In this document: in pieces, positions 3,703 through 34,734 of the stretch
How the letters are laid out: each line of letters opens with the position of its first letter
Numbering within the stretch: the stretch's first letter is position 1
Assembly (NCBI GenBank): GCA_016208615.1
Contig: JACQXS010000001.1
Coordinates: forward strand, 1 to 36,018
From: Candidatus Stahliibacteriota bacterium
GTDB lineage: Bacteria > Hydrothermota > UBA3073 > JACQXS01
Direction of reading: 5' to 3'
DNA: 36,018 bases
Program-made: the position numbers and the translations under genes
The notes under the pieces: generated by a model
The model's database searches: none
Told to the model about the DNA's origin: nothing
Seen by the model: only the letters and a program-made list of their open reading frames with translations

Positions 3703-5415
3703 GTGAGGATATCTCAGGATAAGATAGCTCAAATTCTTGCCTCCAATCCCATAGAAGAGGTAATTGGCTCTTATATTGCTTTACATCGTGTAGGCAAAAG
3801 CTATAAGAGTGTCTGTCCTTTTCATTCTGAGAAGTCTGCTTCCTTTTATGTTTCTCCTGAAAAGGGTGTTTATCATTGTTTTGGCTGTGGTAAGTCGGGC
3901 AATGTGATTACCTTTTTAATGTCGTATAATAATTTGGCTTACTTTGAGGCGGTTAAATTTCTTGCCGATAGAAGTGGTATAAGTTTGGATTTAGTAGAAG
4001 ACGAGCATCTGAATTTATATAAAGCGACTGACGAAGTGGCTCAACTTTATCACTCTGTTTTATTAAGTGATAAGGGGTTACCGGGTCGTAAATGGTTAGA
4101 AGGTCGTGGCATTTCGGATACTACGATAAACAAGTTTTTATTAGGGTATGCGGCTGAAGATTCTCTTCTTTTGTCTAAAACAAAGCAAGGGTTAAATAAA
4201 GAAGATTTGGAAGCTTTGGGTTTAGTGCGTAATTTTCGTGACACCTTTTGTCGCAAGGTAATTTTTCCCATCCGTGATAGGTGGGGTAAGGTAGTAGGTT
4301 TTGGTACGCGAGTTTTGGACAATTCAGAGCCCAAATATATCAATTCTTCTGAATCTCCAATCTTTAAGAAGGGTAATTTATTATATGGATTTTCTGATGT
4401 GCGTTCTGATTTAAGATCAGGAGCTGTTCTTGTAGAGGGGTATATGGATTTACTGACAGTTTATCAATCTGGTATAACTAATGTTGTAGCGAGTTTAGGC
4501 ACTTCATTGACACAGGGGCAGGCGCGGCTTTTGAAACTTTATACTCCGCAAGTTATTCTTGCCTACGATGGTGATTTGGCAGGTCGTAAGGCAACAGAGC
4601 GGGCTATAGATATTTTATTTGAAGTGGGGCTTGATGTAAGTATTTTGTCTTTACCTGATGGCGAGGACCCTGATTCATACATAAGGAAGAAAGGGGAGTT
4701 GGATTTTAAGGGAGTGCAAACTTTTATAGATTTCAAATTTCAAAATGCAAAATGCAAAAGAGAAGACCTGAATACATTGCCACGAAGGCACGAAGACACA
4801 AAGGTACACAAAGAAGAAGGTTCAAAGTTCAAAGAGTCAGGAGCTCAACTCCCTGGGTATGCAGAATTTTCAGTAAGTGAAAAGGAAGCATTAGTTCGCA
4901 ATTTTCGTGATACTTTAAGCAAAATAGCCGACCCTATTAAGAAGGAACTTTGGATGGGTGAGGTGGCTCGTAAATTTGGACTTCGTCAGGAGCTCTTTTT
5001 ATCTACTGCTCCGTTAGTTCCGTCAGAGGCGGAACCTAAACTTGGTCCTAAGCGAAGTTTGAAGGAATTAGAAGTAGAGTTATTAGGGATAGCGTCTTCT
5101 GATGTTGGGGCGTGTAAAATTTTAATGGCCAACTCAATAGAGATAAGGACCTCTGAATTGAAGTCAGTATTGGATAAGGTACTAAATGGAGCATCTGAGA
5201 AAGAAGTTATAGACTTATTACCTGATGATGAATTGAAGCAACTTTTTATAGGGCCTTCTTTTTGGGAGGATGCGGATTATGAGCAATTAGCCCACGATTA
5301 TCTAAAATCTATAAGGGACAAAAGAAGTAAAGCCGAGCGTGCCCATTTGTTGAGTAAAATAGAAAAGGAAGGAAATGCGGAAGATTTGAGAAAGTATCAG
5401 GAGTTGAAGAAGTAG
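3703..5415 (+). CDS. dnaG: DNA primase
   Basis: Synthesises RNA primers at the replication fork with DnaB helicase. An N-terminal CHC2 zinc ribbon is intact: C38, H41, C59 and C62 in CPFHSEKS...CFGCGKSGN. The catalytic core follows, with the TOPRIM domain carrying E245 in VEGYMDLL and D289/D291 in YDGDLAG. A C-terminal helical DnaB-interaction domain ends in LRKYQELKK. 570 aa is normal for the family. The start is GTG at 3703, with no convincing Shine-Dalgarno. Residues ~345-385 (FKFQNAKCKREDLN to KESGAQLPG) are low-complexity and are encoded by intergenic-type repeat DNA, inserted between the TOPRIM and C-terminal domains. A second hairpin insert is at 5017-5035. Confidence 0.95.
   Translation: MRISQDKIAQILASNPIEEVIGSYIALHRVGKSYKSVCPFHSEKSASFYVSPEKGVYHCFGCGKSGNVITFLMSYNNLAYFEAVKFLADRSGISLDLVEDEHLNLYKATDEVAQLYHSVLLSDKGLPGRKWLEGRGISDTTINKFLLGYAAEDSLLLSKTKQGLNKEDLEALGLVRNFRDTFCRKVIFPIRDRWGKVVGFGTRVLDNSEPKYINSSESPIFKKGNLLYGFSDVRSDLRSGAVLVEGYMDLLTVYQSGITNVVASLGTSLTQGQARLLKLYTPQVILAYDGDLAGRKATERAIDILFEVGLDVSILSLPDGEDPDSYIRKKGELDFKGVQTFIDFKFQNAKCKREDLNTLPRRHEDTKVHKEEGSKFKESGAQLPGYAEFSVSEKEALVRNFRDTLSKIADPIKKELWMGEVARKFGLRQELFLSTAPLVPSEAEPKLGPKRSLKELEVELLGIASSDVGACKILMANSIEIRTSELKSVLDKVLNGASEKEVIDLLPDDELKQLFIGPSFWEDADYEQLAHDYLKSIRDKRSKAERAHLLSKIEKEGNAEDLRKYQELKK
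4735..4857 (+). repeat. Intergenic-type repeat DNA inserted in frame in dnaG
   Basis: Contains CAAAATGCAAAATGCAAAAG, then ATTGCCACGAAGGCA (4776-4790, identical to spacer 2868-2882), GGTTCAAAGTTCAAAG, and an AGGAG/CTCCCT inverted pair. It adds ~40 hydrophilic residues between conserved primase domains. Confidence 0.75.
5017..5035. repeat. Short hairpin inside dnaG
   Basis: GTTCCG and CGGAAC form a perfect 6-bp stem around tcagagg; read as LVPSEAEP. The loop and stem resemble the CCGCCagaGGCGG half of the double-hairpin family. Confidence 0.6.
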
Positions 5416-5463
5416 TTAAGAGTTTAGGAGTTTAAGAGTTTAAGAGAAAAAGGAGGTTAAGGT

Positions 5464-6996
5464 ATGCGTCAAGAAGTAGAGAAGATCTTAAAACTTGTTA
5501 ATCGGCATAGCGAAATAACCTACGAAAAGCTAAACGATACCCTTCCTGACAATCTTATTTCGGCTCGTGATTTTGAGGAAATAATTACCGAATTAGAGGC
5601 GCTGGGGGTGAAAATAGTAGAAGAAGGGCATCATCATATAGAGGTAGAAAAGCCCCCAACTATAGATACTCGCAAGCTTGAAGACCCTACGCGAATGTAT
5701 TTTCAAGATGTAAGTTCTGTCTATCTACTAACCCGCGAGGAAGAGACTCTGATAGCCAGTATTATAGAGAGAAATTATATTCAAATAGCCAGGCATATCT
5801 TTTCTACGATATATGGGATGGATGAGTTTTTAAGGTATCGTTCCAAAATAGAGAATAGACGCATTCCACCTGAGGAATTTGTTAGAGTAGGCGTACCTGC
5901 TCCATCGGTTACCTTTCTTGACAAAGAGTATAAGCGTATCTTAAAATCTCTGACTTCTATTGAAAGTAAGCGAGATGAAATAGTATCTCTTCGTCGCAAG
6001 AAAAGGACTGCCTCTTTTATTAAGCGGAGGCGTCGCCAAATAAGAAATGAAATAGAGAAACTTAACTTACACTTTGGATATATAGAGGAAATATTAACAA
6101 GAGTTAAAACTTTATACGAGAATACTACCCAAAAAAGAAGTGATTCACCACGGAGTGGTTCTAAAAATAATTATTCTATTAAGCAAGCCGAAGATAAAGT
6201 AGGAATGAGATGGAGCAATTTTAGGAAGTTACTTAAAGAAATAGCAACATATGAGGATGAAATAGTAAAGAATAAGCAATATATGGCGGATTCAAATGTT
6301 AGGTTAGTTATTTCTATAGCTAAAAAGTACATGCATAAGGGGTTAGAGTTTGCTGACCTTGTTCAGGAAGGCAATTCTGGGCTTATGCGTGCCATATTAA
6401 AGTTTGACTATCACAAGGGGTATAAGCTCTCTACATATGCGAGTTGGTGGATTAGGCAAGCTATTACACGCGCAATAGCAGACCAGGCAAGAACAATCAG
6501 GGTGCCGGTGCATATGATTGAAATAATACATCGTGTACTTAAAGAGACCCGCAGTCTTATTCAGGAGTATGGGAAAGAGCCCTCTCCTGAAGAAATTGCG
6601 GATAGGTTAGAGCTTTCGCTACATAAAGTGAAGGCAGTCTATTTGCTTGTGCAAGACATTACCTCGCTTGACCGCCCTGTTGGAGAAGATGGGGATTCGT
6701 TTTTTGGTGACTTTATTGCTGCGGGTACTGAGAACTCGCCCGCATATGCGATTTCAAGGGTTATGTTAAGGGAAAAATTGGAAGAAGTATTAAATGATCT
6801 GAGCAAAAAGGAGCAAAAAGTATTAAGATTGAGGTTTGGCTTACAGGGAGAGACGAGCAAAACATTAGAAGAAGTAGGTATTATATTTGATGTAACCCGC
6901 GAAAGGATTAGGCAGATTGAGGCAAAGGCAATTAAGAAATTAAAATATAAAGAGCGGAGAAAAAAGTTAGAACCCTTACTTGAACTGCTTGACTAA
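5464..6996 (+). CDS. rpoD: Primary RNA polymerase sigma factor (sigma-70)
   Basis: Housekeeping sigma factor, last gene of the macromolecular-synthesis operon, 48 nt after dnaG with a strong AAGGAGGTT site. N-terminal residues 1-60 look like region 1.1. Region 1.2 begins at D74 ([10 protein letters not shown]). A long non-conserved region lies at ~110-270. Region 2 starts at S277 ([26 protein letters not shown] from 298). Region 2.4 contains RTIRVPVHM (343-351), region 3 follows, and the region 4.2 helix-turn-helix contains [17 protein letters not shown]. 510 aa is normal. The non-conserved region contains a small palindrome insert (6147-6159, ACCAC/GTGGT). The consensus-like TTGACA/-10 promoters in this window fit this sigma. 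Confidence 0.96.
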
Positions 6997-33769: not shown

Positions 33770-33830
33770 CTCTAACGATAAAGCTCCGTTGCCCTGCTTC
33801 TGCGGGGTCAACTGCAGCGATTGGTTAGAT
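33770..33830 (-). repeat. attC1 recombination site
   Basis: Minus strand: R'' ATCTAAC (33830-33824), a central imperfect hairpin (GCAGTTGACCCC / AGGGCAACGGAGC), and R' GTTAGAG (33776-33770), the last base departing from GTTRRRY. The 47 bases 33771-33817 match 34257-34303 with one difference; only the R'' side differs. It starts 4 nt after the aspartic-protease stop codon. Confidence 0.85.
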
Positions 33831-33834
33831 ATTT

Positions 33835-34227
33835 CTATTTTTTAAATCCTTTTACTATTGAAGATGCAATATTTGGACTTTTGGGATTAACAATTAGTTT
33901 TCTCTGCGCCGGAGAAATTAAGACATCCATATCTTCCATAGGAACTGCACCAAGTAAAATTTCATCTCCCAGTATAATCGCTCCGGTAAAACAACCTCTA
34001 TTCTCAAATTTTACTTCGATAGGACCAACATAAGGACATAAATATTCCTTCCCATCTGCAGTAGTAACATCTCTTTTGTATAATTCTTTCAAATTCAATT
34101 GAATAGCAACTTTCTCTGGTATGCAAAGATGTAATGCCCCTGAATCTACTAACGCTTCAACCTCCATTTCTTTAATTTCATCTTCTTTCGGATTTCTTAA
34201 AATAATTGTAGCCTTCACTAAACCCAT
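33835..34227 (-). CDS. Clan AA (retropepsin-like) aspartic protease, integron cassette gene
   Basis: 130 aa. The catalytic Asp is D28 in ALVDSGALHLCIPE, the single-domain retropepsin-type active site (DSG/DTG), which needs a dimer. Later segments CPYVGPIEVKFENR, FTGAIILGDEILLGAVPMED and LIVNPKSPNIA are typical of a bacterial clan-AA family that I recognise by pattern; the biological role is unknown. A GAGGAGGTGT site precedes the ATG. The gene is bounded by attC2 upstream and attC1 4 nt downstream, so it is the cargo of cassette 2 and probably arrived by site-specific recombination. No signal peptide. Confidence 0.88.
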   Translation of the reverse strand: MGLVKATIILRNPKEDEIKEMEVEALVDSGALHLCIPEKVAIQLNLKELYKRDVTTADGKEYLCPYVGPIEVKFENRGCFTGAIILGDEILLGAVPMEDMDVLISPAQRKLIVNPKSPNIASSIVKGFKK

Positions 34228-34255
34228 AATACACCTCCTCGTATTTGTTTTTTAT

Positions 34256-34316
34256 ATCTAACGATAAAGCTCAGTTGCCCTGCTTCTGCGGGGTCAACTG
34301 CAGTGCCTTGTTATGC
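34256..34316 (-). repeat. attC2 recombination site
   Basis: Minus strand: R'' GCATAAC (34316-34310), spacer AAGGCACT, stem CAGTTG-A-CCC / GGGCAACTG with unpaired G and A on one arm, GAGCTTTATC, R' GTTAGAT (34262-34256, matches GTTRRRY). 61 bp. It begins 3 nt after the stop codon of the membrane-protein ORF. Confidence 0.88.
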
Positions 34317-34319
34317 TCT

Positions 34320-34637
34320 TTAATTTGCGAATTTTGCAGTCACAATTCCAACCCCCGCACCAAGAATTATAGACATTGCCAAAATAGGAATAATACTTTT
34401 GGGGTCTTCTTTTGATACAAGAATTACAATTGGTAGAGCGCTTAATACAGAAATAATTATACCTTTTAGCCAAGGAACCAATGGCATTTCAATGTAAGAT
34501 ATGACAATTCCCAAAATAACCCAATGAACAAAAGCAGAGATACATGCGTATTTATCTAATTTCTGAAATATCATGGGCGTTACATCTATAATACCTGCAA
34601 TAACACCAATAATTAATGAGATAAATAATTTTAGCAT
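34320..34637 (-). CDS. Small integral membrane protein, integron cassette gene
   Basis: 105 aa, nearly all hydrophobic, about four membrane helices: LFISLIIGVIAGIIDVTPMI, ISAFVHWVILGIVISY, WLKGIIISVLSALPIVILV and IIPILAMSIILGAGVGIVTA. Polar or charged residues are confined to short loops (KLDKYA, SKEDPKS). I do not recognise a family; many cassette genes of this size encode such membrane proteins of unknown role. A GGGGGAAC site lies 5 nt before the ATG. The ORF fills cassette 1 between boundary TTATGC (34669) and attC2 and is the first gene behind the strong promoter at 34734-34705. Confidence 0.7.
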   Translation of the reverse strand: MLKLFISLIIGVIAGIIDVTPMIFQKLDKYACISAFVHWVILGIVISYIEMPLVPWLKGIIISVLSALPIVILVSKEDPKSIIPILAMSIILGAGVGIVTAKFAN

Positions 34638-34663
34638 TTTTGTTCCCCCTTTAATTTATTTTC

Positions 34664-34670
34664 GCATAAC
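34664..34670 (-). other. Upstream cassette boundary (GTTATGC core site)
   Basis: GTTATGC on the minus strand fits GTTRRRY and is the exact complement of R'' of attC2, marking the 5' junction of cassette 1 with the chromosome or a former attI. No second attC arm precedes it. Confidence 0.75.
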
Positions 34671-34704: not shown

Positions 34705-34734
34705 ATTATAGCATAATTCAAAAGATATTGTCAA
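34705..34734 (-). promoter_or_regulatory. Strong consensus promoter facing the cassette array (Pc-like)
   Basis: Minus strand: TTGACA (34734-34729), 18-nt spacer ending in ATGC, TATAAT (34710-34705). Both hexamers are perfect and TGC before TATAAT is an extended -10. It lies ~35 bp upstream of the cassette boundary and outside the cassettes, as an integron Pc does. Unlike the leaderless promoters it leaves ~60 nt of leader before the ATG at 34637. Confidence 0.8.

Follow-up and report, generated by a model that had tools for sequence, protein, structure and literature searches.

Integrons have been described in many bacterial phyla and in nine archaeal phyla, in the latter mostly as clusters of attC sites lacking an integron integrase, or CALINs (PMC9024848, PMC8618304, PMC9668308). 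The term is that of IntegronFinder (PMC9024848) and has been applied to archaeal metagenome-assembled genomes (MAGs) as well (PMC9668308). CALINs outnumber complete integrons (PMC9024848, PMC8618304, PMC9668308) and may originate, as has been proposed, by off-target insertion, by the loss of intI or by rearrangement (PMC8618304).

The stretch analysed here, hereafter the window (36,018 nucleotides), is one whole contig of a draft genome of 2.12 Mb (126 contigs, 83% complete) and carries an array with the features of a CALIN, namely, at least two attC sites separated by less than 4 kb, each with a single ORF, all in a common orientation, and no intI gene nearby. Nothing essential distinguishes the array from described CALINs; it is small (two cassettes), its attC sites are very similar to each other, and it belongs to a phylum in which no integrase was found in this work. 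That the array is a real element of this known kind, in a poorly studied lineage, is well supported. The sequence-only reading had already identified integron cassettes forming a CALIN, and our analysis, which found the two attC sites 425 bp apart with no intI alongside, leads to the same assignment. Very probably, the two cassettes once were free circles, which IntI inserted between genes by joining at G^TT.

Table 1. Features of the two-cassette array and its surroundings (window coordinates)
Feature	Position	Strand	Description
Promoter-like site	34705..34734	-	TTGACA-18-TATAAT, TG before the second hexamer; reads into the array
Gene cassette 1	34262..34669	-	408 bp; starts with TTATGC, preceded by G at 34670
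Cassette 1 ORF	34320..34637	-	105 aa, small hydrophobic protein
attC site 1	34256..34316	-	R'' GCATAAC (34316-34310), R' GTTAGAT (34262-34256); the bottom strand, which folds, is the plus strand
Gene cassette 2	33776..34261	-	486 bp; starts with TTAGAT, preceded by G at 34262
Cassette 2 ORF	33835..34227	-	130 aa, clan AA aspartic protease; TIGR03698, PF13975, PF13650
attC site 2	33770..33830	-	R'' ATCTAAC (33830-33824), R' GTTAGAG (33776-33770)
Array flanks		-	AAATAATG and TTAGAGGAAAATC; joined, would read as the empty site

Read along the minus strand, the region consists of the promoter-like sequence, the G^TTATGC joint, the 105-aa ORF, attC 1 beginning 3 nt past the stop codon of this ORF, the 130-aa ORF, and attC 2 beginning 4 nt past the stop codon of the latter. 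Both attC sites are 61 bp long, within the range of ~60-150 bp, have complementary AAC/GTT ends and share a 47-nt core with 98% identity. The near-identity of the cores, the positions of the sites and their placement right behind the ORFs all agree with the sequence-only reading, except that site 2 ends at 33770, not at 33771. As that reading had also pointed out, the start of each cassette is exactly complementary to the R'' box of the same cassette, at 7/7 bases in both cassettes and with different sequences in the two; the joints are located at 34670/34669 (G^TTATGC, cassette 1) and at 34262/34261 (G^TTAGAT, cassette 2). Cassettes with such edges arise when IntI joins circles at G^TT.

The earlier contention that this match is beyond chance is supported by the E-values of the covariance model (see below), by a scan of shuffled windows and by the probability of the left edge. 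A strict scan for the R''/cassette-start/R' geometry retrieved cassette 2 from the real window, compared to 0.017 hits per shuffled window. Cassette 1 falls outside the strict pattern because its R'' box is GCATAAC rather than RYYYAAC; the same deviation is present in the plasmid-borne VIM-60 cassette. The RYYYAAC/GTTRRRY pattern missed several genuine control attC sites as well and, therefore, is too strict to be used alone. For cassette 1, the left edge, GTTATGC, has a ~0.2% chance of occurrence in the 33 positions before the ORF.

Given that an Rfam search of the window yielded no family, we constructed an attC covariance model of our own. The model was trained on the bottom strands of eight plasmid-borne attC sites, all from cassettes of class 1 integrons, with no window sequence included; the attC of aadA5 aligned poorly and was left out of the control alignment. 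In this check, which had been proposed along with the original observation, both sites were detected, site 1 with 39.4 bits (E 8e-9) and site 2 with 37.9 bits (E 2.3e-8), and the matches run end to end, on the strand recognised by integron integrases. Contig C108 of the same genome contains a third, homologous site, which scored 31.9 bits, likewise end to end and on the expected strand. In the window and C108 taken together (52.9 kb), these three places were matched (in four rows, two of the loci overlapping) and nothing else. Under the same model, attC sites of plasmid integrons score from 17 to 87 bits, with the training sites at the upper end, and in ~0.65 Mb of other loci, just three (L077, L054 and L084) exceeded 18 bits, of which two resemble real cassette arrays.

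IntI recombination uses attC in the form of a single-stranded, bottom-strand hairpin, so that strand-biased folding is expected. In all three attC sites of this genome, the bottom strand yields the more stable fold; the differences in the inner stem preserve G-T pairs on the bottom strand only and produce mismatches on the other strand. The pairing includes single T and C extrahelical bulges and, in site 2, one mismatch in the L arm. Among the sites of plasmid cassettes, those of cmlA1 and its relatives (the ~60-70 bp type) are similar to the window sites in the R''/R' boxes, the bottom-strand hairpin, the extra base in L'', the left arm GCTGCAG...GAC and the right arm CTGAGCT, whereas the window sites have a shorter inner stem, a 4-nt TTCT loop and low overall sequence identity to the cmlA1 type.

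As previously noted from the sequence, there is no intI beside the array; neither did any protein of the genome (83% complete) exceed the cut-off of the IntI profile (TIGR02249), and the intI gene that belongs to a complete integron was, accordingly, not found in this assembly. With 17% of the genome missing, an intI gene may have escaped detection. The profile search retrieved two tyrosine recombinases from this genome, XerD, which is above its own cut-off, and a XerC-like protein cut by the contig end; IntI1, included as a positive control, scores 508.6 bits on the IntI profile. The IntI cut-off was not reached by any match among the 147 genomes from the phylum. Because this search scores protein pieces apart, the nine best near misses were also read individually, and all nine lack the IntI-specific insertion. 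Three near misses scored as whole proteins obtained 187-225 bits, against the cut-off of 265, and fit NF040815 (XerA-like) better.

The array is flanked by a glycosyltransferase gene and by a PHP-like gene and interrupts neither these nor any other gene. The suggestion that it splits a polysaccharide locus was not borne out: no gene is interrupted, and in the relatives compared, no empty site was found at the array junction, the same-family members being without the PHP-like gene and G139, from the same order, having different neighbours. The promoter-like site, ~35 bp upstream of the array, matches 12/12 bases of the sigma-70 consensus and is the sole such match in 3.7 kb; an attI is not recognisable without its integrase. 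Judging from this consensus, the array is probably transcribed from this site, which would express the cassettes and, possibly, the downstream genes too.

A DNA search of the genome for more copies of the attC core, a check also proposed with the original observation, yielded one, the site on contig C108. This attC follows a different gene for a clan AA aspartic protease and precedes an operon of DUF3467-like, accB and accC genes (names by sequence reading). In 13 relatives, neither an attC nor a protease gene is present within 220 bp upstream of the first gene of the operon (DUF3467-like), so that the insertion on C108 seems to be particular to this genome. A clear left cassette edge matching its own R'' was not detected at the C108 site, where the expected GTTAGCA is absent. 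On the same contig (L006; G000:C108), the promoter-like stretches before the protease gene (1376-1425) and before the DUF3467-like gene (1955-2010) are ~80% alike by eye, as if such a stretch had been duplicated or borrowed by the insertion.

The protein encoded in cassette 1, which is probably membrane-bound, had no match in Pfam, NCBIfam, viral contigs or plasmids; 4 further genomes from the phylum encode homologues, with no attC in the loci fetched. The protein encoded in cassette 2 scores 80.9 bits against TIGR03698 (cut-off 57.35) and is above the cut-off for PF13975 and PF13650 as well. The best 80 of its 202 relatives span many phyla, at 52-84% amino-acid identity, and most of these 80 have no attC behind the gene, among them the most similar ones (L032-L034, 81-84% identical); thus, it can be ruled out that this protease gene always bears an attC. 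In addition to the window, the TIGR03698 family occurs in cassette form in a betaproteobacterial MAG (Burkholderiales; L054, 5001-6188), where the protease gene heads an attC (5398-5484) and a second cassette with a HAD-like hydrolase gene and its own attC (6114-6188), indicating that at least one other bacterium carries the family on a mobile cassette. Cassettes would thus be one route for the spread of a family that spans many phyla and includes a cassette-borne member in at least one array from proteobacteria. Upstream of the protease gene of a Planctomycetota MAG (L077, 1000-1861), there are two attC-like sites, with scores of 27.8 and 22.1 bits. The genome under study encodes three more paralogues of the protease, none with an attC; directly downstream of an attC-less paralogue (L132, 310-520; G000:C109), there is a ~26-bp tandem repeat (acttttcacttgcattagtga...).

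If the array formed as we propose, each cassette was at first a free circle, and IntI, either resident and then lost, or supplied in trans, would have recognised the bottom-strand hairpin of attC and inserted the two cassettes at a G^TT located between genes. Of the proposed origins of CALINs, off-target insertion and loss of intI both fit the evidence. With no IntI at hand, the array would now be stable, and stranded unless an integrase returns in trans. As to the source of the integrase, the sequence-only reading favoured an integron of this lineage with a single home platform. The three homologous attC sites on two contigs are in line with this view; the lack of intI and of any large array is not, and because, furthermore, attC sites elsewhere in the phylum are unlike those in the window, the data can equally well be read as delivery by an external integrase. 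A version of the same scenario, incompatible with delivery in trans, is that the array is the remnant of a resident chromosomal integron, in which intI and attI were lost or reside in the unassembled part of the genome, and the promoter is the former cassette promoter. The promoter with its full consensus match right before the insertion point and the completeness of only 83%, along with the homologous attC sites, would fit such a remnant, whereas the absence of IntI from all 147 genomes of the phylum, the dissimilarity of the other attC sites, and the flanks of the array, which consist of a glycosyltransferase and a PHP-like gene with no remnant of intI, speak against it; we consider this origin possible, albeit somewhat short of an even chance.

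Two other explanations were weighed. The hairpins might be elements of another type that accompany these genes, for example, terminators of transcription or members of a transposition-borne repeat family, as could be surmised from the strength of the hairpins and from the presence of three copies only, two of these behind related protease genes. However, no terminator-like site was found in the region, and terminators were rejected on this ground; R'' and the cassette start covary between the two cassettes; the independent attC model yields an E-value of 8e-9; and the other three protease paralogues lack a copy of the element. Altogether, this makes an origin of the hairpins outside integrons highly improbable. 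The draft state of the assembly (126 contigs), and the finding of attC sites in binned genomes in general, call for a check of contamination, that is, of whether the contig comes from another, integron-bearing organism. The estimated contamination is 0.8%, however; the WbqC, PIG-L, aminotransferase, WecA-like and PHP-like genes are also found together in G139, from the same order; and the DUF3467-like protein encoded next to the third attC shares 74-82% identity with its counterparts in genomes of the same family and order, so that a binning artefact appears very unlikely. The two-cassette CALIN, assembled by IntI, thus is the reading that we retain.

Searching the phylum with the plasmid-attC model, we identified attC sites in 15 of the 147 genomes. 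Several of these sites form arrays with about one ORF per attC (G008:C68, G143:C49 and G144:C60), and their sequences differ widely from one another and from the window sites. Cassettes, then, circulate in the phylum, mostly as lone attC sites or small CALINs. The phylum, which has been little studied, shares in the pool of cassette genes, with none of the 15 genomes showing an IntI. A DNA match in G114 was discarded as an attC candidate because it lies inside a repetitive coding stretch. A DNA search with the attC core against viral contigs, plasmids (by blastn) and phages found nothing, and a literature search under a single guess at the phylum name, WOR-3, found no integron paper, which proves little. 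Should a closed genome also lack intI, it would provide a clean case for how cassettes reach integrase-free genomes.

A XerA-like recombinase (NF040815 type, without the IntI insertion) is encoded in 6 of 14 attC-bearing genomes (G133, G142, G143, G144, G025 and G085), compared to 1.4 expected (hypergeometric p 0.0008 by genome and 0.015 by genus). This overlap was noticed post hoc, the related genomes are not independent, and the genome containing the window lacks a XerA-like recombinase; hence, we take the association as a lead only. The chance appears slim that the attC cassettes of the phylum owe their mobility to a tyrosine recombinase distinct from canonical IntI, for example, of the XerA-like type (NF040815), in what would amount to an integron-like system without IntI. 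In one relative from the phylum, a 5.9-kb contig (L173; G008:C68:1-5891) is a CALIN with about four attC sites and ORFs without a Pfam match, a possible store of uncharacterised cassette genes.
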